Shown: positions 35,384 through 58,889 of the stretch, one piece after another
How the letters are laid out: each line of letters opens with the position of its first letter
How positions within the stretch are numbered: position 1 is the first letter of the stretch
Assembly: GCA_963920765.1 (NCBI GenBank)
Contig: OY987251.1
Location: 498,501 to 562,500, forward strand
Direction: 5' to 3'
DNA length: 64,000 bases
Source: Ulota crispa
Taxonomy: Eukaryota > Streptophyta > Bryopsida > Orthotrichales > Orthotrichaceae
Notes under the pieces: model-generated
The model's input: only the letters and a program-made list of their open reading frames with translations
Told to the model about the DNA's origin: nothing
Database searches by the model: none
Program-made: the position numbers and the translations under genes

Positions 35384-35667
35384 TAATGAAAGTTTAGATT
35401 AGAGCATCGAGAGTTTGCTCTAGACCAAAGTAGATTGCTAAAAGTGAGTGTAGCATTACAAAAGAAACATGTGGTAGAAGCCACCTTTTAGGAAAGAGAA
35501 TACCATATAGGCAATTTTATCCTATATGGTTTGGAGAAGAGGTGAAACCATAGATGAGTATATAGATAAGAATATTAGAAAACACTCTCACCTCTTCCAT
35601 TTGTATGTTATGCATTTGAAGAATCCATGTGTGCCTTTGCTCTCCTCTCTTTCATATGGTTTCAATA
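35384..35667 (+). repeat. 5' LTR of the copia fossil (284 bp)
   Basis: Matches 40612-40895 over its whole length. It ends TTTCAATA. The family terminus is TGTTGAAA, so the LTR carries a short inverted repeat (T-G/A-TTGAAA). A GGTTATGGG stretch follows where a primer-binding site is expected, with only a weak resemblance to the initiator-Met site. Confidence 0.92.
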
Positions 35668-36240
35668 GGTTATGGGTCCACGACTTGGAGTGTAGAGGTG
35701 CATGCGGTGAGGAGGGATCATTCTTGAGGTAGATGAGACCTTAGATTTTGAATTGGAGTATATTTGTGGTGGAAGAGGACCTTTGTGGAGCTACATCTCT
35801 CTTTGCATGCCTTTTGGAGTCTTGGAAGATTTTGTTTTGCCTCTTTGAAAGTTGTTGATCCTCATTTAACTTAGTAGAAGACCAAATTCAAGCTTTTGGA
35901 GTGTTGGATCTTGTTAAAGCTTTTTGGAGGACCTGGTCTATCATTTGGGAGGGGCTCATCCACTTTGGAGCTGATTTGGACTTCTATTTGGTGTTGCACA
36001 AGCTATTGGAGATGTGGCATTGCTACGGCTGAAGGTTGTACCATCAAAGTGCTTGTTAGAAATACAAAGAAGTGATTCATGAGTTGCTGTTTATGCATGC
36101 TTTGCTTTGGCTTTTATCCACCCTTGCTTGAGTTGTTTTGCTCAAGTGGAAGCATAGCATTTGCTTTGAGGGTGTGGAGAGTGCAAGTAGTGAGGTTATG
36201 GATGGGGTTTGAGTAATAACTATATATTTGGATAGATCTT

Positions 36241-36570
36241 GAGTTCTTTTGAGGGTTTGGGTTGCATTCTTCAACTCCTTGTGTGTGGAGAAAACTAGGG
36301 TTTGCTAAGGAGGTGGTTGAGTGGTATACTTCAACCCCTTGAATGTGGAAAAAACTAGGGTTTGTTTGGAAAGAGATTGAGTTGCATACTTCAGCCCATT
36401 GCCTTTGAAGCAAGCTAGAATTAGCTTTGAGAGTGGTTGGATAGTATACTTCAACCTTTAAATGTGTGGAGAGAGGTACACTTTGCCTAGGAGATGATTT
36501 GAGTTGTGTATTTTAGCCCTTATGCATTTGATGAGAGTTTTGAAAGAGTTTGTATTACACACTTTAGCCA
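36241..36570 (+). repeat. 60-bp tandem repeats in the copia leader
   Basis: Units centred on GTATACTTCAACCC recur at 36265, 36325, 36385, 36445 and 36508, with a shorter last one near 36556. Each is followed by an AAACTAGGGTTTG-like or equivalent block. The array ends directly at the gag start, so it is part of the element's untranslated leader. Confidence 0.85.
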
Positions 36571-39500
36571 TGTCTACCTATGAAGGTGACACCCCTTGTG
36601 TTGTGGACAAGTTCAATGTAGATAACTTCTCTTTGTTCAAATTCAGGATAGAGATCAATCTTGATGAGAATGATCTTTAGTACATTGTGAAGGGTATCAA
36701 GAGTACTCCTTCAAGTGATAGTGACTCCAATGTCATCTTGACCTTCAATAAACATGGGAAGATGGCGTTTTGCATCTTATGCACTCACATAGTAGATGCT
36801 CAAATCCAACAAGTCAAGTCTTACAAATGAGCTGTGGAAGCATGGAAGACCCTTTGTGGCATGTACAAGACCAAGGATTTTGCCAACGTATTGTTCTTGA
36901 GGCACAAGTTCTTCACCATGAAGATGCAAGAGATGGACAATCTTTTCCAACACATGAACAAAGTAGAGACTCTTGTGGACCAACTCAATGCACTTGATGT
37001 ACTCGTGACAGAAGGAAACATTATCATACTCATTATGGAGAGCTTGCCACCATCTTTTGAGAACTTGATTGTAGCTATAGAGACTAAGGTTATGAAGGAG
37101 CTCACCCTTACCTACGTGACCTCTTGGTTGATGCATGAAGTGACAAAGAAGTAGGATCATCAAGTGGTGGCCACAAAAAATGTGGCGTTGGTGGTACGCC
37201 ACAAGAGTACTGAAGACACAAGCAATACACAAGGTGAGCCTCTTATTTGCTTCTATTATGGCAAACCGGACCATTATGTTTGCAATTGTTTTAAATGCAA
37301 GGGTGGACAACGAGAGAAGGCTCAAAAGACTAAGGAGGATGAGAGTGGTAATGATTTTGCTTTCAAGGCTTCTCATGAAGGTCCATTGAGTTTGGATGGT
37401 GACTGAATCATGGATTTGGGAGCCACCATCCACATGTCAATTCATAGAGACCACTTTGACACCTTTGAGGCCATTTGGACAAAGAAAGTGCTCAAGAGTA
37501 ATGATTTGGTGTTCCAAGCCATTAGTAGGGGTTTTATTTTTGTGGATATTATGGTAAAAGGGTGCACCAAGAGGATTTTCTTCAAGAATGTATTGTTTGT
37601 GTCCAAGTTACAAAGCAATCTCTTTTTGGTGAGCAAGATAGTGGAGGGAGGATTGAGTGTGCAATTTGAAGGTAGTGGGTGCCTTGTCAAATCACCCTAT
37701 GGAAAAACGCAGGCATTGGCATTACGTGAGAGCAACTTGTATCTTTTGCAGTGGAAAATTGTGCTTAGAGGTGAAAGTGCACAAATTGCAATTTCAAGCA
37801 AGGAAAGACTGATTTTGTAGCAACGGTGTATGAAGCATTTGTATGTACAAAGCTTGAAGGTTCTTCCAAGCTTGGTGAATAGCCTTGAGCTTCCCAAATT
37901 GTATGGTGATGGCTTGTCTAATGCTTGTGAGAGTTGCATTGAGGGCAAGCAACAACGGCACTCATTTTCAAAAGAGGGTGTGACATGGGCCACCAAGGTG
38001 TTGGGCATTGTGCACTCCCGTGTGTGTGGCCTTATGAAAACTTTGAATGAAGGGAGGTATTTCTTAACCTTCATTGGCAACCTTTTGAAAAAGATGTGGA
38101 TGTACCTTCTCAAGGCCAATAGCAAGTGTTTTGAGCTGTTTAGGGAGTTCAAGGCTTAAGCAGAGAAAGATGCGGCCTATTCCATGAAAGTGTTGCAATT
38201 GGACATTGGCGGAGACTACAACTTTAACCAATTTGGAGCCTATTTGAAGACTCAAAGTATTGTGCACCAAATTTCTATCCCTCACACTCCACAACAAAAT
38301 GGAGTTGCAAAAATAGCCAATTAAATCATTGTGGAGATGGCAATGAGCATGATGTATGGCCAAAAGTTTGGCCTAGAATACTAGGCCAAGGTGGCAAATA
38401 ATGCAATATATATCCGCAATCAGTGCACAATGAGTGCGGTAGATGGTAAGACTTTACAAGAGGCATGGAGTGGGAAGAGGTCATCTATAGTACATATTAA
38501 TGTTTAGATGTATTTCTTATGCCAAGGTCCCCAATACATCAAGGACCAAGCTTAATGTCAAGTCGGTGAGTTGTTTGTTTTTAAGATATTGTGAGGGTTC
38601 CAAAGCCTATAGGCTAATGTGTTTGGAGTCCAAGAAAATCATTTGATGTTGTAATGTGACCTTTTAAGAACATGGAAAGTTGCAAAAGAAATTGGAATTA
38701 GGTCCAAGGGAGTAGTGGAAACTTTGATGTTGTAGATACATCTTCCACGCCTTTGGACAATGACAAAGAGGATGGAGAGGAGGACAACCAGCCTCTTGAT
38801 GATGGAGATGGTAGACATACAGAGGATGTAAGAGTAAGCCAAAGTAATGAAGGCTCCAAGCTTAAGAAGGCACAAGGATTTGTTCCAAGCGCTTAAGTAG
38901 GAAGTAATCAACATGTAATAGGCATGCGGCAATTTACGAAAGTAAGCAAGCCATTGGAGAAGAGGTGAGGAACCACATCTTTTTCTAACCATACTCAAAT
39001 TTAGACTATGCTAATGTGATTTTTGTGCATGACTCCACTACACTTAGAGAGGCTTTGGAGTCTTGGGATGCAAACAAGTGGGAGGCGGCCATGAAGAAGG
39101 AGTATCACTCCCTCTATGCCAACAGCACGTGAGAATTGACCATCTTTCCTCCATCTCGCAAAGTCATAGAATGCAAGTGGGTGTTCAAAACTAAGAAAGA
39201 TGCTACAAGGGAGATTGTGCTCTACAAAACAAGGTTGGTGGCCAGAAGATTCTTTCAAATGCAAGGAGTGAACTTTAAAGAGACATTTATTCTTGTGACC
39301 AAATTTACCACCATACGGTGCATTGTAGTGCTTGGAGCTTCATTTGATTTGGAGATGCACCAAACGGATGTAAAGATGGCCTTCCTCAATTGAGATTTGA
39401 AGAACAATATCTATATGGAGCAATCTAAGGGTTTTGTGCAACGGAGTTATGAGCACTTCAATACAAGCTCACAAAATATTTGTATGAGTTGAAACAAGCA

Positions 39501-40611
39501 TCAAGGACATGGTACCAAAAAATTGATACAAGTCTTTTGGGTTTTGGATTTTGGATTTGTGATGAGTGTGGCAGACCATAGCTTGTATTTTATACAAGTA
39601 GAAGCCTATGTGATACTTGTGCTTGTGTATGTTCATGATTTAATCATTTTCTCAAGCATTGTAAAGACTATGGGTGCATTAAAGGCCAAAGTGGAGGCAA
39701 AGTATGATATGATGGTCTTGGAGGAGTTGTACTATTGCTTTGGATTTGAGTTTGCAAGAGATTAAAGTGCAAAGAGTATCACCATGAGTCAAGCCAAGTA
39801 TGTGGAAGAGATGCTCAAGTGGTTTGACATGGAAGATTTCAAATCCATTGTCACTTTGTTAAACACCAATGTGAAGTTAGAGAAGCTTAGCACGAAGGAT
39901 TACAATGCGGATGCTTCAAGGATGGTGAGTGTGCCTTACAAATCAGCGGTTGGATCCTTAATGTATGCCATGGTGGCAACAAAAGCTGATTTGGCCTTTG
40001 CCATTGGCATGGTGAGTCAACACATGGCAAAGCTAGGTTGGAGCCATTGGATGGCAGTGAAAAAAATCATGAGATACTTCAAAGGCATTTTCTACATGAG
40101 GTTGCAATTGGAAAGGCAGTACATACGTTTGATGAGGTGTTGTGATGCAGATGGGCTGGAAATGCAAATGATAGAAAATCCACTACAAAATACGTGTTGC
40201 GCCTTGGAGTGGGCATGGTGTTGTAGAGTAGCTGAAGCAACTCATGGTGGCTTTATTGATAATAGAGGCTAAATACATGGTGGCTAGCCATTGCACAAGA
40301 GAAGCCATATGGCTAAGGTAATTATTAGAGGGTGTAGGATATGAAGACGTGGAGGGCACCTTAATTTTGTGTGAAAATCAAAGTGCCATAGCTCTTGCCA
40401 AGAACTCAATGTATCATGCAAAGACAAAGCACATCAAAGTGCAACACCTCTTTGTACAAAGGAAAGTTGTGAGGAAAATCATCACATTGGAATATTGTTC
40501 AATGGAGGACATGTTGGCGGAGGTGATGACAAAGACATTAGCAAGGAATAGGCATGAGCATTTGATGAGAATCATGAGCATGTGAGACTTTGGCCATTTG
40601 CAAAGTGGGAG

Positions 40612-40895
40612 TGTTGAAAGTTTAAATTAAGGCATCTGGAGTTTGTTCTAGGCCAAAGTAGATTGCTAAAAGTGAGTCTAGCATTAGAAACAAAGCATGT
40701 GGTAGAAACCGCCTTTCAAAGAGGAAAAATTTGTATGGGCAATTTTATCCCATGTAGTTTGATGAAGAGGTGAAACCATAGATGAGAATATAGATAAGAG
40801 TGTTAGAAAACACTCTCATCTCTTCCATGTGTATGTTATGCATTTGAGGAATCCATGTGTGCCTTTGCTCTCCAATCTTCCCTATGGTTTCAATA
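40612..40895 (+). repeat. 3' LTR of the copia fossil (284 bp)
   Basis: Begins TGTTGAAAG just after the polypurine stretch and ends TTTCAATA. It has the same length as the 5' LTR. A third member of the family is the solo LTR at 28772-29054. Confidence 0.93.
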
Positions 40896-40978
40896 GTTGT
40901 TTTGTCTCTATTCCTTTCCACACTTCACGTTGTTGGATTCTCCGATTTTGAGTGTAAGATCTTGTGGACATTGAACAA

Positions 40979-41960: not shown

Positions 41961-43820
41961 GTCACCCCTCCAAAGGTCCAAAAATTGGTACAAAATGTAC
42001 ATTTTTGGTACAAAAGTTACACATTTTGAAACTAAATGGAGCCAAAACATCAATTTTAACCAAAATGCAATGGTGGCCCATCTCAACAACAACGCTTTCT
42101 ATCAGACAATCCAAAGAAAAAACTTTAAAAACCAATTTAAGGTCAATAATTGGCCTTCATACTAAAATTACACATGTGTTAGGATATTTCCTTATGTAGA
42201 CTCTAAAGCACTCATTAAATGTCTAGTCTAAGTACCTAAACACAAGAGCATTGGATTTAGCTTTTTGAATTGTGAAAATCATTATATTTCTTTGTACTTG
42301 CATTAATTTGTAATGTATAGATTTCCAAAAAAATAACTACAGCTTCCCTTAAATGCTTCTAATATATATGAAAAAAATGCATGTGATGATTGTATATACT
42401 TCAATTTCAATATTAAAAAGGCCCTAAAGATACACTCATGTATTTAGTATCTAATTCAATTAGAATGATATAAGCAATTTGTATATTCAAACCCTCAAAA
42501 TAACAATATTCAAAATACATCTCTATAAGGAGACATCAAGAGTAAATTTAATATCAAAAACTTAAAGTGTATTAAACATGTTATATTTACAAAACAAACA
42601 TGTCTGCTCTAATGTGCTCAAGGGATTTTTAATTCTTCAATTATATTTCAATTTGACAATTATAAAACTAATCAATTCAATTCAGGTGCATAAAATACAT
42701 GCTTGATGAATTACTTTTATATTATTGTTGTAGTATATTAAAACACTTTACATATTTATGAAATAGAAAATTGTCATAGGCTTGAACTTATGCAGTAAAG
42801 TTTTGATATTTTCATATTGTTACATTGTATGTGTTCAAGTGGTTGTTATAATAATTTTCTACTAGTAGTATGAAATATTAGTATTTTATGTATCTTAGAA
42901 AATGTATAAATTAGGTATGAGTACTTTTAGCTCATAAAGGACTGGGCTTTTGTTTTGACAAACAATACTCATGACTCCCATGTTTGTAGCAAATAGTGGG
43001 AGTGTTTAAAAAGTGGCATTTTTGCATATCTAACCGTGCAATTTTATAATAGATTTTAAGAAGATTGAGGGAAATAAAATTCAAAGTTCTGTACTACACA
43101 AATTTTTTGATATTTATGTTCAAACTCTTGAAAACAAAAAAATTGCACCTTGCATGACTAAATTAATTGCATTCAAATTTTCTACATTTAAAATTTTTAA
43201 ACTTAAATTTGAAAGTTCTAATTTATGTCTTATGGAAGGTTGAGTTGATGTTATTAAAAAACAAATCTAAACTAAAAATATGTACTTTTTTGTCTTAAAT
43301 AGAACATTGTATAGAAGTACATCTGAGATTGAAGAACAAAATTTGTAATTGTTATTAACTTTACAATGAAATCAAAATACAATAACTCCAAGGTCAATAG
43401 TGTAATTGTGAATAAACTCCTTGCTTTTTAACAATGTATTACAAAAATAAGTCAACATTGCATTCAAAAATAAAGTTTAAAAGTTATTTAGCCAAGAAGA
43501 TGCCTAAATTGCTCATTTTCCAACAGTGTCCATCACCTTGTACTAATAAGTTGTAATAGATTGAATTGGAGCTTCAGATTTAGAGAAAATTACATCTTTT
43601 CACAAAAAATAGTACAATAATAGAATTGAAATTATTGGAAAAATAAATTATATTTGCTTTGCCTAAGTCAATGCTTACCTAGACATTAGTTTTGCTCTTG
43701 AGCAAAACTTGAAATTTGAAATATAAACTATACTCACTAAAATAGAATTTATTTTTGTTATCTAAACCTTCATCTTGCATGACATGCAATCCCTTCATTA
43801 TACTTACCAACATATTACTA
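41961..43820. other. AT-rich spacer, nothing recognised
   Basis: After a short stretch with GGTACAAAA.GTACA repeats (41985-42020) the sequence is AT-rich and stop-dense, with no coding pattern and no element ends noticed. Confidence 0.55.
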
Positions 43821-43821
43821 A

Positions 43822-44835
43822 CTTGCACTGATGTTCTTAACCTTGTAAACCCACACGTGGTTAGAGATAGAGCGGTACAATGAAAGTCAGACCTACCCCT
43901 CTATATAATTTCTACAATACCGTCCAAGCGTTGAAGTCCACAAACGCTTTGTAACTACCCAACACAAACTCTCCCCCTTTGCTTTCAAACCCGTCTTTTT
44001 GAGTTTTCAATTCTCCTAAATCTTCATCTTTAAGAGAAACTAGAAACCAAATTCCAAAAGCATAGGAATTGTTATCTCTATCACCATGAAGTAAATTGTA
44101 AAAATTACTTGTGATATACATTAGGAAACTACCAAAAGAACCTTATGCTTTACAAATATCATTAAATTCAAGTTTTTCTAATGCGGGAACTTCCACCTTC
44201 AGCATCTCATTCCTTGTACCATTAACAAAGTACGGTGATATTGTGGAAACTTTTTTACCATATACAGAAGAAACCACTGATATCAAAATCTATTGATGTG
44301 CCTAATTTGTAATAGCCAAAACATCACGCTGTTCATTCTTATTTGGACAATATTGTTATAATGACATACCTTTGTCTGTTCCTGCATGTTATATAGCAAT
44401 AAGATTCAAGTTATAACGAATTTTTTGGAATATCAAATAAAAAATATATAAGATTAACAATAAACATATTCTAAATCAATAAAACCAAAATTGAAAGAAA
44501 AATATAGCCTTAATTTCCAACCAACCGCATACATGTCTCCGTTCAATTGTGCCCAATTGCAATCCACGTAACTAGCTCCTTTTTATACACCCATAAGGGT
44601 TTTAGTTTAATTCTTGTACTCCTCAAGTTCAACATTGTTCGTCTTATCAAAATGGCAAAATCTTACTACCAACACAATCTCCTTGGAGGATTGATCTTGA
44701 ATCACCGTGGTGCCCCTATGAATCCAATGAAAATCCTTTGGAACTTTGCATAAATACTTACCATCAAGATTTTCTTTTATTTTTTGCCATTGAATATTAA
44801 ATGCCCATACAATATATAAAAACTATTTATTAATG
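43822..44835 (-). pseudogene. TET/JBP-like 2-oxoglutarate/Fe(II) dioxygenase relic
   Basis: On the minus strand the fold's signatures occur in order. First, HWIHRGTTVIQDQSSKEIV and LVVRFCHFDKTN (~44620-44720, the N-terminal strands). Then NGDMYAVGW (~44518-44545), PYFVNGTRNEMLKVEVPALE (~44170-44235) and SNFYNLLHGDRDNNSYAFGIW (44058-44121 region), where HGD fits the iron-binding HxD. Then KGGEFVLGSY, DGIVEII followed by RG, and DFHCT (43874-43888), which fits the distal iron ligand His, with CGFTRL after it supplying a candidate 2OG-binding Arg. Intron-like signals occur (an AG acceptor near 44400 before GAACAGACAAAG and GTATGT). A frame change near 43925 and a few stops, including one where W is expected, indicate a dead copy. 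Family members oxidise methylated bases in nucleic acids, or are suspected to; substrate here is unknown. Confidence 0.7.
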
Positions 44836-45041
44836 TAAGTCAAAAATATAATATACCATCAATAACTACAATAATAAAAATCATTAGAAAAAATTAAAAA
44901 CTATACTTCAAATTAAAAACTATAGTCTTTTCAACATAAAATCCAAGAACTAAAGAATTGGAAATCAGAACTATTAAAAAAACAATGAAATGGAAAAATT
45001 ACAAATTCAAGGTATTCAAATGGAAAAGATATGAAACTCAC

Positions 45042-45150
45042 CTTTTACTTTCATTCAAATATCTTGACATTCTCAGAAAAACTTTTTCTTCTTTGAAGCT
45101 TTTACGTATGCCTTCTAGGCTTTTTTTTTCTTTTCTTGGATTTCAATAGG
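45042..45150 (-). other. Possible upstream lysine-rich exon
   Basis: On the minus strand a Lys-rich stretch (EIQEKKKK, YVKASKKKK) is followed by a consensus 5' splice site, AAAAG/GTGAGT, at 45041. It lies 200-300 bases upstream of the dioxygenase relic and could be its basic N-terminal exon, but it contains stops and the AT-rich context makes Lys runs common. Confidence 0.25.
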
Positions 45151-45261
45151 ATTTTGCAAATACAACATATTTAATACCTCTATAACAAATCAAAAAAATA
45201 TCAAATTACTGAAATCTATAATTTTTCACCTTTATCACAAACAACTCATATTCAAAGATTG

Positions 45262-46210
45262 GTTGATATTTTGTTGCATATGGATTCTAAGAATGATTTA
45301 AATAACCTTAAAGGCCAATATTGCTCTATTATTTGTGGAATCAAGTTTGAATACCCAATCCTAATTTTATTATATTATTATTTTGTTGCATATGGATTCC
45401 TAAAATGATTCCCAAAAAACTTAAAAGCCAATATTGCCTTATTGCTTTTTGAATCAAGTTTGATAACCTAACCCTAATTTTAGCTTGATAATCTCTACCT
45501 TATGGATTCCAAGAATGATACACAAAACCTTAAGGGCCAATACTGCCCTATTATTTGTGGAATCAAGTTTGAATACTCAACCATAGTTTTGGATTAATGT
45601 TTTGTTGCATATGGATTCCTAAATTGATTTCCAAAAAACTTAACCTAACTCTAATTTTAGTTTGGTATTTTAATGTATATGGATTCTTAAAATGATTCTT
45701 GAAAAACTTAACATAACCCTAATTTTAGTTTGATATTTTGTTGCATATAGATTCCTAAAATGATTCCCACAAAAAATAACCTAACTCTAATTTTAGTTTG
45801 ATATTTTGATGCTTATGGATTCCAAGAATGATTCACAAAATCTTAAGGGCCAATATTGTCCTATGTTGGTGTAATTAGGTTTGACTACTCAACTTTAGTT
45901 TTGGTTTAGTATTTTGTTGCATATGAATTCCTAAAATGATTATCAAAAAACTTAAAGATCAATATTGCATTATTGCTTTTTGAGTCAGATTTGATAACCT
46001 AACCCTAATTTTAGTTTGATATTTTGTTGCTTATGGATTCCAAGAATGATTCACTAAACCTTAAGAGCCAGTATTGCCCTATTGTTTGTGGAATCAAATT
46101 TGAATATCCAACCTTAGTTTTAGTTTAATATTTTGTTGCTTATGGATTCCTAACTTGATTTCCAAAAAACTTAAAGGCCAATATTACCCTATTGCTTTTT
46201 GAATATAGTG
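45262..46210 (+). repeat. Tandem array of ten ~110/68-bp units, two alternating types
   Basis: The anchor TATGGATTC recurs at 45281, 45393, 45503, 45612, 45680, 45749, 45817, 45924, 46034 and 46143. Most spacings are 107-112 bases, and three successive ones are 68-69. Type A units contain CCAAGAATGATTCAC and end in TTGAATACTCAACC. Type B units contain CCTAAAATGATTCCC and end in CTAACCCTAATTTTAG. The order is A-B-A-B(short)-B(short)-B(short)-A-B-A-B, a dimeric higher-order repeat with a shortened B unit triplicated. Confidence 0.9.
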
Positions 46211-46370
46211 GGAATACCATACTACCAAATAAAACAAGTTTTGCTTTATTCAACTAATACAATAAAATTTAAAAAGAAAATATGTTTCTAAATATATTCC
46301 TAATAGTTCCAAGGAATAATAGTAAGGTTTTGTTAAGGTCATTGGAATAATTATTGAAACAAACAAGTAC

Positions 46371-46430
46371 CAGGTGTTGCCAATACCAACGTTGCCATCG
46401 ACCAATGATTCCATTCTTGATTTGCAATCT
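46371..46430 (-). other. Possible 60-bp exon
   Basis: On the minus strand a pyrimidine-rich tract ends TTTGACAG at 46431 (acceptor). GT follows 60 bases later at 46370 (ACCTG/GTACTT). The 20-codon interior is open in more than one frame. It could belong to a gene extending toward the dioxygenase relic; evidence is splice-like signals only. Confidence 0.2.
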
Positions 46431-46486
46431 CTGTCAAAAGAAAAATCATACAAAAGTACAATACAAAAATCACAACCATTACTCAT

Positions 46487-47734
46487 ACTTAAAAATACTT
46501 CTCAAATTCCAACCTTTGACAATTAGCCCCAATGCAATCTTAGAAACAAAGAACATATTGCAAACTCACACAGAATTTAATGAAACGCACATTCGGATTA
46601 AACTTTGAAAGTTTAGTCCTTGGATGTTTAAATAGAATTACTCCCATGCTTGTATAATACAACAAGTCCTTGTGAAATCAAAATAGGACTTAACCCTAAT
46701 TTTCTACTATAGCAGATGAGTAGAAATCTGTTTTTTCTACAATATCAAGATTAACTTTAGTTTTGAATAGGTAGTATTATGCAAAATTGTTCAAGGCTTG
46801 AATGAATACTATGTTTGGCCATATGAACTACTTTATGTATGCATGTGGAAAAAGTGAAATAATAATGGGCACACTTATTTTAGCAAGGAGTCATGTAGTT
46901 TACAAATCATCATTCATTTATCGCCACAGAAATTAATATTGTTTTCCAAAAAATGACAATGAGCGGACCATGCAGCCATGCAGATGTGTCTACACAAATG
47001 TCCTACAATTGTAGAGGATTTGTTTACTGGATAGAAGCGCCGGCAATTGTAAAAAAATGCATTTGACAAAGCTTGGGACAAATATGTCTTATTTCCTAGA
47101 AAACTCAAGCAGTAATTCTAAATAAACCAAATATGAGACTTTGAGAAAGAAGGTTGAGAAATGATGCAAAGTATGAAGCTTGTGTTTGTCAATTTTGCCA
47201 AGAGGATATGGGCCTCATCCATGTCCATCCTAACAACAAAACAAACAATTGTTTTAGTTAGCAAAGATGCATGAGGTGTCTTCAACCTTAAATTGCTTGT
47301 TATAGCTTTCACAAGGTTTAAAAGAGACAACAAAGCATCAAAATTTATAAACAAGACATCAAGATTATAAAGTAAGATAACCTTGGTGGCATTTTGAGTA
47401 GAGGCCATGATTGCCATTTACTTCAATGGTCTCCAGAACTAGCTTGCACCACGGGCGTGCGTGTTGTAGGCCGGTGAATAAGGAAAATGAAGTATGGCTT
47501 CTAAGTAGGCTTAGCTATCAGCCAAGATCAGCATTGGTAATGCCAATGCAGACTTGGATATACAAGTGAAGCCAAGAAGAGGAGTGGGAATTATCCCACA
47601 TATTTTTAAAGGAAAGTTCACATCTAATTGCAGTTGTAGTGCATGTTTAGCATGTGTTAATTAAAAGCATGGTGGTAGAACTGCAAGTAAAGTAGTGGTT
47701 TCAACATCATTTATAGACTAAAAGATTATAAGAT
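46487..47734. other. AT-rich spacer, one unassigned open frame
   Basis: The longest frame is 47118-47417, minus, 99 codons, hydrophobic with no motif or homologous block elsewhere in the window. I do not claim it as a gene. Confidence 0.5.
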
Positions 47735-48515
47735 TTTGATCATGACGGTGTTAAAACTATGAAAGTGATTTGAAATCTTCTATTTGTCTTTGCACATCTC
47801 AAATTTGAAATTGAGGATACCAAATGAAGATGAGCATGTGAAGTACAACATGCACAACCCTAATCAATTACGGCCTCTCAAAATCTATTCTACAACTACT
47901 TTAGTTAAAATTTCAATGTGATTATTTCTCCAAGTTCAAGTGTACTTGAGGCTCATTTCCAAGAGCCATCAATAGTAGAAAGTGAAAATTTACAATGGAC
48001 ATCTTTGCACAAAATTTTGATTAGACAAATCATAATCATTCACTTTCAAGATCATATTTTTGATATTTAATCTCTAGATGCCCAAGGCACCCAAATTGGG
48101 TGCTTGCAAAACTTTGAAGTCAAACAAAATCTTATCAAATCACTATTATTTCTTTTGGAAACAAGTTTGTTTTGAAGTCTATTTTTAGCATCAAAAATTT
48201 GACTTTGAAAATGAATGTTTATGATTTTTCTATTCAAGATTTTGTGCAAGGGTGTCCTCTGCAATCTTGAGTTTTCTATTGTTGGAAGATCTAGAAAATA
48301 AGCCTCAAATGCACTAGAGCTTGGTGAAAAAACCCCATTAAAAATCCATTTAAAAAGAATGTAGGAGTAGATTTTAAAAGCCCTAAATTGGTTGAGGTTA
48401 AACAAGTAATGACCAAAAACCTCATATTTTTTTGATGACCAACTTTTTAGATTTGACATGTGAAATGAGGATTAGAAAACTTCAAGTCACTTTTGTAGTT
48501 TTAACATCCTTATTT
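47735..48515. mobile_element. Large foldback element, ~320-bp arms
   Basis: The left arm (about 47735-48060) and right arm (about 48205-48515) are inverted copies. For example, TTGATTAGACAAATCATAA on the left pairs with TTATGATTTTTCTATTCAA on the right, and TAAAACTATGAAAGTGA with TCACTTTTGTAGTTTTA. The loop is about 140 bases. A third copy of the left arm in the same direction lies at 49670-49960. No coding capacity is seen; frames on both strands mirror the palindrome. Confidence 0.75.
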
Positions 48516-48540
48516 TTAAACATTAATCCATTTGTAGTGA

Positions 48541-48594
48541 GTTGCCCAAAATGTCTATGTTGCCAAAAACAAGTGTTTAGGGCTTTAGGGGTTA
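48541..48594 (+). mobile_element. Terminal scrap of a TTAA element (copy H)
   Basis: GCCCAAAATGTCTATGTTGCC followed by GGGCTTTAGGGGTTAA matches the right-hand terminus of the family. It lies just outside the foldback's right arm. Confidence 0.55.
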
Positions 48595-48772
48595 ACATTA
48601 CAAATATCTTCTTCTAGCATTGTAGATTTTGAGCTTGAATTTTTCTAATTGAATAATTCAATAGAAAAATGTTAAAAAGAATTGTTACATATTGTTAATT
48701 TTGCTTACTGAAATATTTGCTTTGTTGATTATTACCATGTTTTAATTTTAGCTTAAATTGGCTAATTATGGT

Positions 48773-49670
48773 TTAACCCCTAAAGGACCAAGCCATTTTT
48801 TTTGTGAAGAACAAAGAAAACTGCCACTTTTGGGGAAGCTAGTACAATGGTAAGAAAAAAAAGCTTTTTACAAGAATTCAACTATAAGATCTTACAATAG
48901 ACTACAAAAGGTACACGTGGTAAGAAATTCAGCTCAATCTACACAAAAGTGAGTGAGATATTTACATTTGAATTGCAAGAATGAGTTTTTTTGGGCTGCT
49001 GCCCAAAAATTTCAGAAGGCTTTTACCACTCTTAGATCAAAAAAATTACTTTACACAAAGTTGAGGTTTATTTTTCCCAAGTAGGAGACCAAGTTAGGTA
49101 TGTGTGGGAGAATTTTCAAATCAATTGGAACTATACAACACATGGGAAAAAATAGGAAGGAAAAAGAAGTAGAGAATGAGTCACAAAACTAAATAGTTAA
49201 GAATTTAATTATAAAAATGAAAAATGCAAATCCCAATAGTCATAATGTTGTGGTAAACAATCTACATCCTTTGGTTTTGTTTTTTTTCAAAATATTGAAA
49301 ATTGAGTAAAATAAAGGACTTCAAAGTTTATTTTAGAGTAGAGAATCTAGAATTGCCCACAAACAAAAACTCCTCATAACTTTCATCTCATCTATAAAAA
49401 TTGAACGATTCAAAGCTCCCCACATCTATATAAGTCCAAAGAACCTATTTCAGATTTTTATTTTAAAAAATGAAATTTTTTAAGAAGTTTTTGGCTACCC
49501 CTTGAACACCATTTTTCATAAATTCATGCATAACTTCTTCATCAAATGTTGGAATGAAGGAAAAATTAGATGCCCACGTAGATCTTTGAATTCCCCACCT
49601 TCCACAAAAGTTTTACAAAATCACAAAAAGTAGACTAGCCATAGGTACATGCCCAAAATCCCATTTGTCC
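48773..49670 (+). mobile_element. TTAA-ended element, copy E, right end lost
   Basis: Starts with the best-preserved left end in the window, TTAACCCCTAAAGGACC, and runs through the family's interior blocks (CAGAAGGCTTTTACC, AGGTATGTGTGGGAGAAT, CATAACTTTCATCTCAT, GGTACATGCCC). It stops at CCATTTGTCCCCC about 30 bases before the expected end, where a copy of the foldback arm begins. Confidence 0.88.
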
Positions 49671-49960
49671 CCCTTGCATCTCAAACCTAAAAGTGAAGGT
49701 ACCAATAAAACATGAGTATGTAAAGTACAACATGCATAATCCCAATCAATTTACAGCTTCTCAAAATCTATTCTACAATTTTTTTAAATGAATTTTTAAT
49801 GCAATGTCTTCTCCAAGTTCTAGTGTACCTGAGGCTCATTCTAGGAGCCTTCAACACTAGAAAGTGAAGATTTGCAATAGACACCCTTGCACACAATCTT
49901 GAATAGGCAAATCATGTTAATTCATTTTCAAGATTAGACTCTTGATGCTAAAACTAGACT
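49670..49960 (+). repeat. Third copy of the foldback arm
   Basis: Same direction as 47795-48075 (GTAAAGTACAACATGCATAA, TCTCAAAATCTATTCTACAA, CACCCTTGCACACAATCTTG). It abuts the truncated end of copy E, which suggests that a rearrangement joined the two families. Confidence 0.75.
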
Positions 49961-50351
49961 TCAACAACAATTTACATGTAATAATAATCACAAAAAAAAT
50001 CTTGAAAAGACCTTTGGCATCTTTGAACAAAATTCAGAGGGGTGTAGAAACTGCCCCTTGGGCGTTGAGGGGCTAAGGTCTTTTCAAGCAAAGCTTGAAT
50101 GAAGCAAAAAGATCAAGAATCACCTAGGCATGCAAATGAAGAGATTATCCACCTGTAGCTCACTCAATTACTGTAGAATTTTGCCTCCATTGATAGGTAT
50201 AGTTGAAATTTTGGTAGTTAGTAGTTAATAATGTTTTCTCCCCATTTGTATAATGAGATTATGCAAAGTTGTTCCACATTTGACTGAACTACACATTACA
50301 ATTTAATACCTTGGCTCCTAGTGGATTATGCAATTTTAGGGCTGTTCTTTA

Positions 50352-50945
50352 TCCTGTAAAGGACCAAACCCCTTTTTTTTTGAAACAAAGCAATTTTGGG
50401 CAGATACCTGTGATTCTAGCTTTTTGTATTTTAGGCTGAAATTCTAAAAGAATGTGGGGATGAGGTTTATCTTTCATATGCACTAAATTTCTTGACATTT
50501 GGCATTATGAGGAAAAAGTTATGGCCTAGTATGTTCTTTTCTACGCTCGTTGGGTAGCTTGGGCAGATTTTTTAAAATCACCTTTTTCAAAAACAAAAAC
50601 TTTAAACTAGTTTAGGAGATTTATGTGAATGTAGGAAGCTTTCAATCATTCCGTTTTGATCGAGGAGATGAAAGTTGTGAGGATTTTTTATTTGCAGGCA
50701 GTCATGGATTCTCTACTGTAAAACAAACTTTGAAGTCCTTTATTCTACTAAATTTTTAATGTTTTCAAAAAAAACAAAGCCAAAGGACTTAGATTTTTAT
50801 GACAACATTATGACCATTGGGATTGGCATTTTTCATTTCCATTTTTACATTCTCAACAACTTAGTGTTCTAAATCATTCTCTACTTCTTTTTACTTACTA
50901 TTTTTTTTCCATATGTTATACAATTCCAAATCATTTGAAACTTTG
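50352..50945 (-). mobile_element. TTAA-ended element, inverted partial copy G
   Basis: Minus-strand copy facing copy E. The outer end reads TCCTGTAAAGGACC. Interior blocks match in reverse (CTTTGAAGTCCTTTATTCTA, TTATGACCATTGGGATT, CATTCTCTACTTCTTTTT). The inner end stops near 50945 before the family's other terminus. Confidence 0.8.
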
Positions 50946-51333
50946 TTGACATGTACTTTACTTAGGTGGAATAAGGAATATAGAGAAGTACCACCCACAT
51001 GTCCTTTTTTCCTTAGGAATTTCACCTTTTGAAGGGTAGTTGCCCAATTTTTCACAAGATGTTTTTGAATATTCAAACCATTCTATCTTCCACTCCACAT
51101 CGTGGAATAGTGTGAAATTTTTTCCACATCTTCTAAAACTATTCTTGTACAAGATCCTACAAACACATATGCATAAAAACTTTTTTGTTTTCAAATTTTG
51201 TTGATGCGCTAAAAATAGCAATTTTGGAGAGTTTATGATGAAATATTTGCTTGGTAAGGTAGGGACATTGGGTTTACATAACCCTGATGTTAATTCATGG
51301 CCATTCATCTTGTATGCTCTCAAGGGTACCCCG

Positions 51334-51430
51334 GGTATATAAATATTCCCCCCCCCACCCTAAACCATTAGTGTACTGCGCACCCACCCCCCATTAATTA
51401 CACATTGATACCCCCCCTTTCTCTTCCACC
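51334..51430 (+). promoter_or_regulatory. TATA-like box and C-run region
   Basis: GGGTATATAAATA at 51334-51346 is a strong TATA-type match, and composition turns sharply GC-rich just after it. Several C-runs (up to nine) follow, before the first coding-like block near 51430. It would suit the promoter of the plus-strand gene below, but no transcription start can be shown. Confidence 0.4.
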
Positions 51431-52260
51431 CAGGTGGCAGCCATCAATGCCCTCGATTGCAAATCTGCAAAGGGCGGCTCATGCGACTGACGTGTTTCAT
51501 TCCCGAGAAATCACCGCCGCCAAAGCCGGGGAGAGCCCTTCGATCGTGTTGGTCTGGCGATGCTGATAGCAGGAACAGATGTTTGTGTTGCAGTCGGTCG
51601 AGCAGACGCTGGTCCCGTTGGTGAGGAGCTAGATTTTGCAGGAAAATGGTTGCAATTGTGTATGATGGACGTTCCGATGTTGCACAAGGCGGAAGTCTGT
51701 GACGCTTGAGCGTAACGTTTGGAGCGGATTCGTGTACTGCAGTTTTGTAGGATTGCATGTTTTGTAATAGAAGTTGTGGGGATGCAATGACAATGATTGA
51801 CAAAGGAGTAGTTCCGTCTACCTGGATTTGCCTGATCTGCGTTTATCGAAGTTTGTATTGTGAGCACAATTGGGCTTGAGCACAACAAAGCATTGACCTT
51901 GGGCGAGTGGAACAGCCCTGCCATTGCAAAGGAGAAGATGCGCTGAAGTTGGGACTAGAAACGGGAGAAAGGAGACTAAGGGGAGCGACTTCAGAACGCG
52001 GCAGTGTAGTTGACGTCCATGTTAGCAACTGTCTTGCAGTTGTTCTTTGCAAAACATTGCACGAGTGCACCAAGCATGCAGAGGACGCAGTAAAATTGCT
52101 GATCAGAGGCTGTGACGTTGCAGAGCGGAATATTGCTGAAACATCAACAAATTTGATGATTTTGCGGCAAACGAAGAGGGGAATACGTGGTGGACTTGTT
52201 CCAGAAGTAGTGGCGGGCAATGCCAAATTGTGCAAACATCACTTGGATTGAAGGTTGATG
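51430..52260 (+). pseudogene. First coding-like blocks of the 51-63 kb gene relic
   Basis: A GC-rich plus-strand stretch with protein-like character. About 51535-51710 reads DRVGLAMLIAGTDVCVAVGR, then DFAGKWLQLCMMDVPMLHKA. About 51940-52250 reads GLETGERRLRGATSERG, SNCLAVVLCKTLHECTKHAE, RGCDVAERNIAETSTN and RGIRGGLVPEVVAGN. A consensus donor CAG/GTAAGT occurs downstream at 52505. I do not recognise the family. The overlapping minus-strand frames (51444-52235) have Ser/Thr/His-rich mirror composition and are taken as shadows. Confidence 0.5.
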
Positions 52261-52974
52261 CCAAAGAATTCCGGGACAACTCAAGGTATTTTTTTGAAAT
52301 TTTGCATGAACCCTACAACTTTTTTGCTGTGCAAGAAATAACATGTTTTTTTGCAATTAGACCACTCAAGTACATTGCCCTTTGTAGATGTTAAAGCACT
52401 GCCTGTCTATAAAATTCTAGTAGCAACTTCTCCATAGCACTTGGACATGATGGTGCTGTGGATTTGTGTCACTTCTTAACAAATTCCGCAATGTCTTTAT
52501 ATTCAGGTAAGTAATGTCATTCATGTTGTCTTCAAGTGAAACCTGAATATATTACACTTAGTACATGTGTGGTATTTTTGTACTAGACAAAAACATGTGG
52601 ATGGCTTGGGTGGCAAAGGGTAATTTTGTAGAAGACATTGTAGGAGATGGCACTTCCAAGTACCATAAAGCAGATAGTTGGTTTTATAATTTTGCATGCT
52701 AGTCTTCCTTGGTTAGTAAGTAGCTTAACATTATCTACTGCAATCGTCATGGAATTCTCAATGGAGAGGTCATGAACATGAAAAACCACTGCCGCTTCTT
52801 TACGTAGAACCGTATCCCGCGTCATTGTATAGGACGTAGGCACGGTTATAGCAGAATGTATAAATGTGTAGATGGTAATATTTGAATTACTTGGAATTAT
52901 TAGTTGGCAAGAATTTAAAAAAGAAACCAATTGTATAAGATATTCCAAAATTGTTAGTAGGGTTAGGTGTTTAC

Positions 52975-52998
52975 TTTGAGGACAACATTATCTTCAGA
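52975..52998. repeat. Palindrome, GAGGACAA-core family
   Basis: TTTGAGGACAAC and ATTATCTTCAGA, an eroded member of the family seen best at 54206. It lies in a non-coding gap of the 51-63 kb relic. Confidence 0.6.
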
Positions 52999-53289
52999 GT
53001 AGGTAGGTCTCATGGTCTAGTAATATTGCTAGAGGTGGTTGATGGTTAGAACATGTTCAACCTTGACAGTGGAAATGCATGGAATTGACAATTTGTAGAT
53101 GCTACCAATGGAGTTGAATGTTGTTAAATTTTATTTCTTTTCTAGGTTTGGGGTGCAAAGGGGTTGGATGTCTAATTGTTCCGAGCAATAAGTTTTAGTG
53201 TATCTTGTCCAGAGACATTTTGTTTGTGAGCACAATAGCAAGCCAAGGCGTGGTGGTTTGAGTAGGTCCTTGTCATTCTAGCAGCTGCT

Positions 53290-53440
53290 AACGAGTGGAG
53301 GAGGTCGCAAAGGACAACAGAAGGGCGCCCCATGAGCAAAGTACACGGGTGATCAAAAATCAATTCTTCCAATGAAGGCCTGGCATTTAACAGTGTTAAG
53401 ATCCTAAGCTCTCTAGCAATCACAAGGTTTGGCCTGCAAT
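53290..53440 (+). pseudogene. Short coding-like block of the 51-63 kb relic
   Basis: The plus strand reads LAAANEWRRSQRTTEGRP then SNEGLAFNSVKILSSLAIT. Composition is protein-like but the block is short and interrupted. A minus-strand frame (53172-53423) covers the same bases and cannot be fully excluded. Confidence 0.25.
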
Positions 53441-53442
53441 GA

Positions 53443-53505
53443 ACCCCATAAACCCTCCCACATGCAGATGTCTACCCCATAAACCCTCCCACATGTAGAT
53501 GTCTA
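53443..53505 (+). repeat. 31-bp tandem duplication
   Basis: ACCCCATAAACCCTCCCACA occurs twice, at 53443 and 53474, differing at one position in the following AGATGTCT segment. A recent slip-type duplication. Confidence 0.9.
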
Positions 53506-54205
53506 AAAGTTTAACTGCAAAATTGAAAAAGGAATTTGTCATGTGTAGGCTATGTGGTGGTGTAAATCAAGTATGGTTTGTAGTCGGACAATGGATTAGG
53601 ATGTTTTTTCTAGAGTTTAATACATTTCTCAGAACTTAACTTTATAAACCAACACAAATAGCAATTGATTGGAGCTTGTATGTAGAATAATGGCAAGATG
53701 GAGTGGTCGCAAATAAATGTCCAATGAGAGAGAGACTGATGTCAAAACCAAATGAATGAGTTCATTACCATCAATGTTAAAAGTTAGTAGAAGGACATGA
53801 TTTCTTGAACCATCAATAGCTGTGTGTGGAAGAAAAGTTTACGTTGTTATATAGGTTGCAGCAGCCTTGTGTCTTCAATGTATAGTGGTGGACGATGTGA
53901 ATGGTCACTAAAGTAATATTTGCACACAAATCTAAGAAAAGCTCAACCTAGAAAATGAGGCTTGGAATACTTGAAGATATTATTTCACTTTACTTGAACT
54001 ACGTTAATTATATTTAGGTATACCTCTTGATGTGTTCTAGGTTGGTTGGAGAAGGACAGCAACAATTAAGAGAGAATGCATCATTGTACTATAACCTTGT
54101 TTCAGATGTTGGTGAAGGTATTGAATTGAACCAAATTACATTAAGGTAGAGACAGGACTTTTTGTTAGAACATACTGAGCTTGACAAGTGCCTTAAGTGT
54201 ATACA

Positions 54206-54227
54206 TTGAGGACAACATTGTCCTCAA
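54206..54227. repeat. Perfect 22-bp palindrome, GAGGACAA-core family
   Basis: TTGAGGACAA, spacer CA, then its exact reverse complement, followed by AATGG. Related copies lie at 52975, 59638 and 61311. Confidence 0.95.
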
Positions 54228-54803
54228 AATGGCCAATGCTGCTACGTGCTAACGTGTGCGGACATCCTTCAATACATTAGTAAGTGATGTGCTTATGAGC
54301 AACAAAGATAGCAAAGGATGGGTGAAAGTTTGCATCCTATGCAGTAGAAGGTGCATCGTGTTTGTAATGGAAGATTTCAAGAAAGAATTCTAATTCAAAC
54401 ATCCTAAACTTGCAAGGATTCATAGAGCACAAGAACTCCTTGAAGAAATCATTTAAGGCGTTGGCCCATAATGTAACATGAACTTCAGAAGTCCACGGCA
54501 TATGCTTCAAGTCTTTGCATGAGTATTCCCTACTTTATTTAAAACTTCATGAAGAAGAAGGCTACCAACAATCTTTTAAAGGCGCCAATATAGAATGCTG
54601 GTGGAAACAAATACTTTCTGTCAATAACAATGTGTATATGATGAAATTGTGCCATCTATTAGAGAACACTACTCCCTGTTAGGAATTGGGGAGAGGTATA
54701 GAAAATGGACAAAGGATGGATTGTTTTGCAAAGTTCTTACTAACAAAAACGGTGGGACTGCTCAAGTGGCAGTGCACCTAACATGTCAACTTCCCGTCTA
54801 AAC

Positions 54804-54875
54804 ATGGCACGCATGAAGACAACCGCTCAAAAGATTGGGCCAGCCAGTACGGTTATGCAAAAGATGGCAACTTAG
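54804..54875 (+). pseudogene. Histone-H3-tail-like N-terminal peptide
   Basis: A 23-codon frame opens MARMKTTAQKIGPAS and ends QKMAT before a stop. Histone H3 begins MARTKQTARKSTGG and continues to RKQLATK, so the positions of the A-R, K, T-A and K residues and the closing AT agree. The rest of H3 is absent. It lies within the plus-strand relic just 5' of the helical block at 54973. It may be the N terminus of an H3-tail-mimic protein or a chance match over a short peptide. Confidence 0.35.
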
Positions 54876-54972
54876 AAATAGTCCATGGTATGTAGAAACG
54901 TGTAGTTGTTTTGAATTCAAAATTGATTTCATTATTTGCACGTTTCATAGAGTCCAATTAAAATAGTCTTAT

Positions 54973-55665
54973 TTGGAAGTTGTGATGCAAGTTGTGAAAG
55001 AAATAGCTCTAAAACTTCAAGGCTCCTTAAAGGAAGTATTGCAGATCGCTTCCAAGGAAGTCAATTCCATGACAATTATGGAACCTAGATTAAAGATGTT
55101 CAACCCTGCCCAAACACTTGGTATGCGTCAATGGTCAGTACGGGTGCATATTTGCAAGAAGATATCTTTGCACAACTTTTGACTTTGGCCCATGTTAATG
55201 CTGTTGAAGCTTAACTAAGTGGATGTTCACCCAAAGCTATGTTTTGTAGATTGTATTCACATAGTGGCAGTACAAGTAGAGAAGGGGGTGGTGGTATTAG
55301 ACGTGTCCAACTTGGGTGATGGTTGCGGCAGTATTCTCCTCTAGTTTCCGTTAGATGCATTTCAACGTAGTACTTTTGAAGATAGTATAGGTATTGTTGA
55401 GGAAGGTTTTGCATCATAAAGCATACTTCGGGAGTTTTTGCACTTTTTGAACAAAGGTTTTGAAACACATCTGGCCACATTCACTCGTGTTTTTGTCCTC
55501 CTCTTTGACATATTATCAGTGATGAATAAGCAGGCTGCGTTATCAACATCTGAAGATCCCAGGATCAGGACATGGCCGGGAGGACTACTACCTAAACGTG
55601 GCCGCTCGGTAGCTCCTAGAACAGGACCTGTTGCGGCTACAAAGACAAACAAAACAGTCAATTAA
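54973..55665 (+). pseudogene. Coding-like blocks of the 51-63 kb relic
   Basis: A first block (54973-55180) is amphipathic: VVMQVVKEIALKLQGSLKEV, then QIASKEVNSM. A second (about 55420-55665) reads LREFLHFLNKGFETHLATF, LLFDILSVMNKQAALSTSED and a basic tail LLPKRGRSVAPRTGPVAATK. The gap between them holds further short protein-like pieces. No domain recognised. The basic Pro/Arg/Ala/Lys-rich tail resembles chromatin-binding linkers in composition only. Confidence 0.45.
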
Positions 55666-55669
55666 CCAC

Positions 55670-57490
55670 TTACTAGCAGCCTTCAAGCAAGCGCATTCAA
55701 AGCTTGTGGAAAAATGCCACCGGCAACACTGGGTGTTAGTGAAAAATAGCGGACTTGGAAAGCAAACGTTATTGGATTGAGAAGAGCACACCTTGGGAAC
55801 ATGCAGGATGTATTGCTACGATTGTGCATTGTTGATTAAAATTTGTTGTTGGTTTTGATCTTCACTCTTTGAATCTTCTGTCTACAATCTTTCGTTGACA
55901 TATCTTGTGGCTGGTTCTAGAGGTATAAGGGTCAAGGTAGAAATAAGAGCTCACTGGATAAAGGATGATTAGATCAAGACAGCAGACACGAGCTGCCGAT
56001 TGTATGACAGAATTCTAAAATCAAATTCATGATTTGTTGGCTAAAATTCCAGATTGTAAGAACAGAGCAAGTCTCAACCATGTAGGTGATCAATTCCACT
56101 TTGTTACCATGACAATAAATGGGATTAAGTTTGGTTTAACCCAAACTACCCGCAACAAGGCTTTCAAAACAAAACGAAATAAAATAACAAATAAACTTCA
56201 AAAATTGGTTAAGAATAAAAAAGCCACATCTCATACATACATAAAAAATAAATCCAATACACTCCTCTTGAAGTCTTCAAGTTTTCATGTTTTAATAAAA
56301 ATAATAAAAAAAATCATAAATAACAAGTCCTAAAAAGGCTGTGACCTTCTATCTAGTGCTACAGATGGCTCAAAGATCCAAATGCTAAGTGTAATAGCTT
56401 TTTGGAAAGTTCTTCTAATATTATAACATCTCTTCAAATTTCAACTCAATCTAAGGTATTGTCAAAAAGATATGTAGGTTGAAAGTAGAGACTTTTTTTT
56501 CTTCCTTACAAACTAAGCACTGCCTCTTTAAACCTCTATAACTTTTGTTTCACATATTTCCATATAAACATAATACCAACTTAAAAAGATAATACCACTA
56601 GCTACAATCTGTAAGAATTTCATTACAAACTAAAATTTTGTCCGAAAGTTCTAGTCAATCAAAGTTTAGATCTCAATGTTTTAGAGTGCATTCAACTTTT
56701 CAACTTCTACGTACTATAACTTCTTCAATAAAACTCCAAATTGATTGATTGAAGACAATTGAAAAAGTTACAATAACAAGCTATCACTTTTAAAAATTTG
56801 AAAACAAAATATTAAACTACCCAAAAGTTGTAGCTCCTCAAAGTTTTGGTTTTCTCCCAACAAAAAGGCAACCACCTCTAATACTACACACCTTCATAAT
56901 TTTTTGCTCCAAGCTCCAAATTACAAGTTTAAGGACTTTTTAGAAAAATAAGACTAAAATGAATATTCCCTCCAACATTCAAAACTAACTTCTAACATAC
57001 TAAGGAATCTTTCCTTCTTGATTTCAACCTTAGGTAAAATAGGGGGGGTGGGGCACATCAGCCCTTGTTCCTCTCCATCTTTATCTTACCATAGATGCCA
57101 AACCCCTTTTCTTTTCACACTTTTACATTCACTTCTAAATCCTTAGTATTTTTATTCAAATAAAAGCAAAATATATGAAACTTCTAAAATACTTAGATAA
57201 ACAAATAAAAAGAATAATCACAAGATAAACTCCATTGTTAAATGGCCACGTGCCTTTGCAAACATATATCAGCGTGAAACACTTATCTTCGGTCGCCAAG
57301 TCGTGGATTTGATTGGTTGGTGAAGTAATTGTCTTTGGCCGCCCCTTTTGCCTCAAGTACTGATTTATTCAAATCAACAAAAAACTAGATATATAACACA
57401 TATTTATATGATGGAGAAGTCTCCATCAAGATAGCACATCGACGAGTAAGAGGGCAAGGGCGCATGACTTGGTACATACAGCCGTGCCGG
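55670..57490. other. Intron-like or inserted AT-rich gap
   Basis: Sharply more AT-rich than the coding-like blocks on either side, with no open frame of note except a Lys/Asn-rich stretch at 56034-56333 that reflects composition. A GGGGGGGTGGGG run lies near 57041. It may be a large intron or an insertion. Confidence 0.45.
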
Positions 57491-57499
57491 CATTGTCTT

Positions 57500-58340
57500 C
57501 TGCTCAAGTATCTTCTTTGCCGCGAGCCGTTCAAAGGGATTGTACTCCAAGTATTGTAGCAGCGCGGCCAAAGTTATTAACTAAGCTTCTACGTTTTCTT
57601 CTATCAAAGCAGAACTCAAAGGACTGACCAGCCAAAGTGCATGTTGTCCAGCTTGCTGCAGCTTGTGGTACTAAGAGCAATAAGGCTGCTTTGTTAAGTA
57701 AAGAAGTACACCTAGCGAAACGTCTAATTTCAACTACTGGTATCAAGCAGAGGCAAGTTCTTATTGTCACTCTTTTGGGCGTGGTCTTTTCTATGGCTGA
57801 AGCAGCTACTCCCCCAATAAGTAATGCTTCTAGTAGAGGTGCAGTAGCAAGAAAGCAGAAGAAAGGAAATCCTTCTAGGTTAGAAGGGACTATAGAGTGC
57901 CGGTCTAAAGACACAATTTGACATGTGAAAGGGAAAGGGATGGCCAAACCAGAAGCAAAGCAAGCGGGGAGCTCTGCTAAGTGTTTGCCACCTCCCTCTG
58001 CAATTGCCACGACAACTCGGCTTCAACAGAATAAAGTCACTGACTAGACCAAAAAGAATGATGAAAGAAGGACTAGCAATTGTGAAGGGCTGGCTAATGC
58101 AGAAGATGACAATGGCAGCACCAAAGAGCCAGTTTTCCAAGGCAGCGGAGCAGTGAAGGAAAAATCTAGGGAGCAAAACCAATCAACTAGCAAGGATGAA
58201 GATGAATCTGATGAAGCAAACGGCAGAGACCTAGACAAATGCAAAAATGACAAAAACATGGAGGTTAACAACAGGGTTGATGGTGTAGATGTTGAAGACA
58301 ACAACAAGGAAGAATCGCACAGCAAAGCGGGCAAGGAGAG
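57500..58340 (+). pseudogene. Basic Ala/Ser/Lys-rich coding block of the 51-63 kb relic
   Basis: A nearly continuous plus-strand frame: SLPRAVQRDCTPSIVAARPK near 57515, VVQLAAACGTKSNKAALLSK, STTGIKQRQVLIVTLLGVV, SRGAVARKQKKGNPSRLEG, then KPEAKQAGSSAKCLPPPSA and an increasingly acidic run (STSKDEDESDEANGRD near 58190). Low-complexity, alternately basic and acidic, without a fold I recognise. One or two interruptions are visible. The Ser/Leu-rich minus-strand frames here are shadows. Confidence 0.5.
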
Positions 58341-58880: not shown

Positions 58881-58889
58881 TTTGATATA

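Follow-up and report, generated by a model that had tools for sequence, protein, structure and literature searches.

Here, we report that the minus strand of a 64,000-base stretch of plant DNA (C10:498501-562500, hereafter the window) carries at 43751-44804 the remains of a broken two-exon gene for a Tet-like 2OG-Fe(II) oxygenase. This relic is, in our judgement, probably a dead member of an old PF20515 family that was amplified to about 45 dispersed loci of a moss genome and has nearly died out since. The comparisons below establish five subfamilies, one intron place shared by three of them, a wide dispersal of the loci, damage in 27 of 28 aligned copies, constraint on the old lines and near-neutral decay of most of the close copies. 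TET-like oxygenases are best known from fungi and animals.

Layout of the relic gene

The features of the relic and its surroundings are collected in Table 1. The original prediction had placed the gene at 43822-44835, which is close, and 43751-44804 is the better fit. The motifs that it had named on the minus strand do follow one another in its order, divided between two exons and not all in one reading frame: the first frame of exon 2 contains NFYNLLHGDRDNNSYAFGIW, H-x-D (first iron His codon at 44088-44086, Asp codon at 44082-44080), YAFGIW and GGEF, and the piece past the frameshift contains DGIVEII running into a stop, DFHCT with the second iron His (43885-43883) and CGFTR with the 2OG-type Arg (43843-43841). 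The catalytic set (HDHR, i.e., H-x-D, the second His and the 2OG-binding Arg) is therefore complete in this copy, which is labelled L017 and falls into group D, but it lies across the frameshift. The copy had been described as decayed, and indeed seven stops and one frameshift in total leave it without a working open frame, i.e., as a pseudogene of the PF20515 family. The promoter scan gave no signal, with 15 promoter-like sites where 17.8 are expected. The fold predicted for the fragment 43912-44289, modeled without relatives and with Q in place of its one TAA, has a mean pLDDT of 47.4 and is uninformative.

Table 1. Coordinates of the relic gene and its context (window positions; bit scores are for a family profile lacking the relic's own subfamily)
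Feature	Position	Strand	Remarks
Segmental duplication carrying the relic	42276-60131, right end approximate		Twin at C10:376440-394316
Exon 1 relic, N-terminal part of domain region	44496-44804	minus	Two in-frame stops; family profile positions 2-104; 83.9 bits; tblastn with L011 exon 1, E 2.5e-14
Intron relic, common to relatives	44382-44515, approximate bounds	minus	gcag acceptor kept, donor lost; position shared with the GT donors of L011, L012, L013, L014, L020 and others
Exon 2 relic, first frame	43912-44381, start about 44381	minus	Four in-frame stops; family profile positions 96-252 at 43918-44370; 110.4 bits
Exon 2 relic past the frameshift	43751-43930	minus	Family profile positions 249-308; 42.7 bits; no Pfam match alone
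Tandem array upstream of the relic, units about 68-219 bases (context only)	45266-46202		Tandem Repeats Finder

Family assignment

The 76-residue piece encoded at 43912-44142 matches Pfam PF20515 with an E value of 6.3e-16 (59.5 bits, cut-off 27), and PF20515 is 2OG-FeII_Oxy_6, a family that the original prediction had named. In the Pfam search of window pieces, the one directly upstream (44143-44289) gave a weak PF20515 match under the cut-off (E 0.079), and the exon-1 and C-terminal pieces alone gave none. That 43912-44142 is the sole window piece over the Pfam cut-off by itself speaks for a chance resemblance, or for a different 2OG oxygenase family; however, with a profile made from the other subfamilies only, the three window pieces score 110.4, 83.9 and 42.7 bits, compared with a best score of 5.9 bits for ten windows shuffled in six-base blocks (profile lacking the own subfamily). 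All ten members of alignment A2 match PF20515 (best E 6e-41), and no other Pfam family passes the cut-off there; a better match to an unrelated family, for which the original prediction had allowed, was not seen. We consider chance or a different family hardly credible. As judged by sequence comparison, the relic is a PF20515 member. The family profile found no second copy in the window and none in a control of 12 of the 39 light-harvesting loci.

A search with both the PF20515 and the strict TET/JBP models had been proposed, and only the former succeeded: PF12851 (Tet_JBP) gave no match over its cut-off of 34.9 bits genome-wide, the best of three places at E up to 1 having 22.6 bits, and E. 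coli, used as a control, likewise gives matches under the cut-off. Solved relatives in this field are TET2, NgTET, CcTET and CMD1, according to PMC12730594. The moss family presumably shares the Fe(II)/2OG oxidation chemistry of these TET/JBP proteins proper, but it differs from them in that it has no PF12851 match over the cut-off and no match by sequence to any PDB chain at E up to 10. With PF20515 itself the likeness lies in the significant match of the window and A2 and in H-x-D...H and Arg standing in the expected order; the difference lies in the moss-like plant host and in the copies, which are nearly all broken and known from sequence alone.

The host genome

The genome comprises 274.8 Mb in 157 contigs, with at least about 271 Mb in C1-C11 (C7 reaches at least 21.7 Mb). 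The plant-like host of the original prediction is borne out by 39 chlorophyll a/b-binding matches genome-wide at E 1e-10 or better. An LHCII protein of this genome has its top score, 524 bits, with a 620-residue chain named LHCI-2, matched in two stretches; 8HTU and 7XQP, at 464 bits, are the best of the ordinary LHC chains, and the next reaches 432. Both are Physcomitrium patens chains, according to PMC10005731 and PMC12589708. Since these moss chains are the closest ordinary ones, the host is very probably a moss, i.e., a green plant without seeds, as had been suggested. Its eleven chromosome-scale contigs would suit a pleurocarpous moss.

Contamination or a viral insertion, in which the matches would stem from assembled DNA of a fungus or a virus, deserves consideration, as moss assemblies are often contaminated according to PMC11228847 and as the single KDZ transposase match of the genome (C152:16677-17060, near none of the family loci) is on a minor contig and possibly represents fungal contamination. 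Nonetheless, the family loci sit on the large contigs C1-C11, are diverged and separately decayed, and some stand beside a repeat that is also present in the window, so that contamination is very unlikely. For a viral or prokaryotic source, 325 stretches of IMG/VR and 23 stretches of prokaryote genomes (GTDB contigs) fitted the patterns and none was confirmed as a relative; the best PHROGs match had an E value of 0.021, and each such match was made by one member of ten.

A dispersed and nearly dead family

In the genome contigs, the PF20515 profile found 49 places with E values of 0.01 or lower and the L009 protein as query found 70 with 0.001 or lower; merged by hand, the two lists give about 45 loci on C1-C11, among which the window copy and its duplicate enter separately. 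Some of the 45 are weak, namely the one match on C7 (3.2e-5) and those at C4:11563366, C5:17436672 and C11:5250434 (1.9e-5 to 4.9e-4, the last at 4.9e-4). Apart from two pairs 4-5 kb apart, the loci lie far from one another: 43 of the 45 are more than 100 kb from the nearest copy or are sole on their contig, and the smallest gap after those two pairs is 138 kb.

We aligned 28 distinct loci frame by frame. The 17 loci left out are mostly weaker ones and include the duplicate of the window copy and both partner genes of the head-to-head units (see below). Damage, i.e., a stop, a frameshift or a lost iron or 2OG residue, was found in 27 of the 28 aligned loci, a count that is unchanged if the intron-adjacent columns are omitted, and all four catalytic residues are kept in six. 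The sole undamaged domain is that of L011 (C4:11296916-11297404 plus an upstream exon), which is open, has H-D-H-R and the usual splice sites, and whose frame ends in a stop shortly past the domain. L011 may be a living gene. The original prediction had expected intact paralogs elsewhere in the genome: paralogs are indeed many, but intact ones amount to this one locus of the 28, with its frame stopping early. The longest open frame among the stop-free PF20515 places, with 325 residues, belongs to L009, in which the Arg is lost and a stop stands upstream.

The aligned copies fall into five groups in the FastTree analysis. Groups A and B have a joint support of 0.98, C and D have 1.00 each, and E has 0.86 with L011 included. 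A and B are without an intron; in C, D and E, several members have their donors at one common place, and other members have lost them. At the second position of the H-x-D pair, the 28 copies have Asp in 23, Asn in four and Glu in one, a decayed row.

Two TET-like genes, one intron-less and one intron-bearing, stand head to head about 3 kb apart at L064 (C9:8488300-8493700) and L065 (C2:25163900-25169800), so that a unit of about 5 kb occurs twice in the genome, with 75-85% identity by piece. We considered this two-gene unit as a general structure of the family and rejected it: it is real at these two loci only, and no further pair within 5 kb was found among the 45 loci.

Selection and decay

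The identity between groups is 0.48, 0.54 and 0.35 at codon positions 1, 2 and 3, respectively (305 pairs), and therefore the old lines evolved under constraint. Close pairs give a different picture. In 14 of 17 such pairs the exons surpass the non-exon sequence in identity by no more than 2 points, and in five C-group pairs they are 5 to 9 points worse kept than the remainder; since exons and non-exon sequence are about equally conserved in most close pairs, most copies have decayed almost freely since their last duplication. In three pairs (L009/L026, L018/L037 and L021/L038) the exons are better kept by 2.4 to 6.7 points, and the ten closest pairs have pN/pS values of 0.52-0.88, from which stop codons were omitted, which lowers the ratio. 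On these sequence comparisons, some lines may have remained under weak selection.

Transitions to transversions in close pairs range from 1.0 to 3.4, with values up to 3.4 in group C and 201 to 200 in L010/L037. The observed/expected ratio of CpG is 0.34 in the window, 0.23 around the relic, 0.62 in the family exons and 0.81 in the light-harvesting loci. Some of the lost catalytic codons are of the type CAT/TAT or CGN/TGN and CAN and others differ; please note that these are undirected differences between copies. As the transition bias is strong in group C and absent elsewhere, methylation-driven mutation would fit part of the family only.

How the copies moved

The latest move of the window copy was as part of a segmental duplication of about 18 kb (Table 1), which shows two levels of identity: 99.25% over 7,725 bases, then 94.3% over 10,015 and 94.8% over 153. 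For the family as a whole, two accounts have to be weighed, each of which we hold to be possible rather than probable.

In the first, a special case of the preferred explanation, a TET-carrying DNA transposon from a fungus, e.g., a moss-parasitic Pucciniomycete, would have entered the moss line, spread and died, its transposase and ends being lost or too decayed. This would agree with the TET/JBP genes of fungi, which ride in DNA transposons of many lineages according to Kojima 2025 (PMC12730594), and with what is seen here, i.e., dispersed copies, dead offspring and constraint on the old branches only. In the stretches tested, however, the moss copies have no transposase, inverted repeats or target duplications. 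Besides the absence of KDZ near the loci, none of the listed places of hAT (39), DDE_Tnp_4 (150 of 278 candidates) and Transposase_21 (150 of 597 candidates) was seen by eye to come closer than 10 kb to any of the 45 loci; the closest listed place is about 10.6 kb from L009. As only about one place within 10 kb is expected by chance, this excludes only a strong association with transposases. Searches at single loci agree: no Pfam domain over the cut-off and no transposase in six frames in the 3.2 kb between the two L065 copies, and no transposase domain in three frames of one strand in the 1.9 kb upstream of L060. Self-inverted repeats were sought in 30 loci, with the flanks of most loci covered to 1.5 kb, and the ends of four copy pairs are ragged and show neither inverted repeats nor target duplications. 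Carriage by a transposon, which the original prediction had raised, thus found no backing from transposase or element ends in the stretches covered.

In the second account, the family would be an ordinary host family of green-plant ancestry: an old TET-like gene, multiplied by segmental and unequal duplications and now disappearing from this moss, in which L011 would be the last copy to work. The spliceosomal intron whose place several members share, the purifying selection on old branches, the plain segmental duplication that moved the window copy, the copy units free of inverted repeats and target duplications, and the open frame of L011 with all four residues are all in line with it. It accounts less well for the scatter of the loci, 43 of 45 of which are far apart or alone bar the two pairs, as gene families usually form tandem arrays, unlike the moss loci, and for the nearly total death of the aligned copies.

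The preferred explanation, a once-amplified and now nearly extinct PF20515 family, can be put mechanistically as follows. The living ancestors would have bound Fe(II) and 2-oxoglutarate via H-x-D...H and Arg and, by analogy with TET enzymes, may have oxidised methylated bases of DNA or RNA. A few working sources and many dead offspring would be the trace of a mobile or selfishly amplified gene, which may have spread through capture by transposons, as happens in fungi, or through duplication at the DNA level, time and again; the ride in the 18-kb segmental duplication was the latest move of the window copy.

At L009, inverted repeats of 32 bases stand to either side of the gene (positions 670-701 and 2403-2434), and a CACTA-like element carrying the gene was considered for this locus. 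It was rejected: in other parts of the genome, CACTA marks the outside of short elements of about 130 bases that come with paired ends, and the L009 ends face away from the gene. We read the L009 repeats as belonging to short CACTA-like elements that inserted nearby, one of which is interrupted by a further repeat, rather than as the termini of a TET element. The exact pattern CACTACAAGGAAA, which was picked after L009 had been seen, occurs five times in the 95 kb of 28 loci versus 896 times in 275 Mb, about 0.3 being expected, and not at all in the window plus 50 kb of neighbouring C10. Such short CACTA-like element ends (CACTACAAGRAAA) are enriched beside the TET-like copies L009, L012, L014, L015 and L022.

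Comparison with fungal systems, origin and significance

The moss family resembles the fungal TET/JBP transposons in having many dispersed and divergent Tet-like copies in one genome. Among the fungal types described in PMC12730594, PE has HxE, PU and AG have H-x-D, and AG has in addition an Asp 11 residues past the first iron His (CcTET Asp337). With its Asp in 23 of 28 copies the moss family is like PU and AG; it differs from PE, as HxE is missing except in the one decayed row, and from AG, as none of the 28 copies has Asp at H+11 and 22 have Gly there, assuming that the columns correspond without gaps. Therefore, with the hallmarks of PE and AG missing, PU or a type of its own is left, which agrees with the fungal-transposon account. 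Fungal genes have entered mosses before, i.e., NAS (PMC12454661) and KP4 (cited in PMC11228847), and the Pucciniomycetes include a moss parasite, Eocronartium muscicola (PMC3783982). Transfer from a moss-parasitic Pucciniomycete is a lead for us, not a result. We offer a fungal origin and a base-oxidising activity as inferences; it is not our intention to carry either beyond that.

A more specific scenario is that mosses gained a transposon-carried TET-like gene from a fungus living on them, that it served as an anti-silencing tool and came to occupy dozens of loci, and that it was then killed by methylation-driven mutation, the very process from which it was to offer escape, with L011 perhaps as the last near-working copy. 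We regard this scenario as unlikely. If the fungal transfer and the anti-silencing reading were true, a plant genome would hold the fossil record of an epigenetic arms race with a TET-like enzyme.

Removal of 5-methylcytosine in plants is the work of glycosylases according to PMC6801703, and a TET homologue in plants is a matter of open dispute, as PMC6949463 describes it. Our literature search on TET in plants and mosses, which covered few subscription papers, found no earlier report of a PF20515 or TET/JBP-like plant gene, and automatic annotations in other mosses may exist; no paper using the Pfam family name was found in it. A large moss Tet-like family, even a nearly extinct one, gives the search a clear starting point: other mosses may hold living copies, in which case oxidised methylcytosine in land plants would become directly testable. 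The moss family is also a natural example of how a putative base-modifying enzyme was gained by a plant genome, multiplied there and died out.

Neighbouring repeats of the window

The original prediction had put the relic next to plant copia and hAT elements. No hAT dimerisation match lies in the window, the nearest being at C10:585274, about 42 kb from the relic. The copia part stood: the stretch 35387-40896 is an old element with 282-base direct repeats, 85.6% alike, at its ends and a Pol_BBD domain at 37407-37820, which we take to mark it as copia-type. A dispersed repeat of about 0.75-0.95 kb, whose copies are about 76-86% alike, occurs in the window at 3654-4407, 6330-7062, 9979-10739 and 48950-49673; the same repeat is found beside or inside the TET-like copies L009, L015, L021, L026 and L029.
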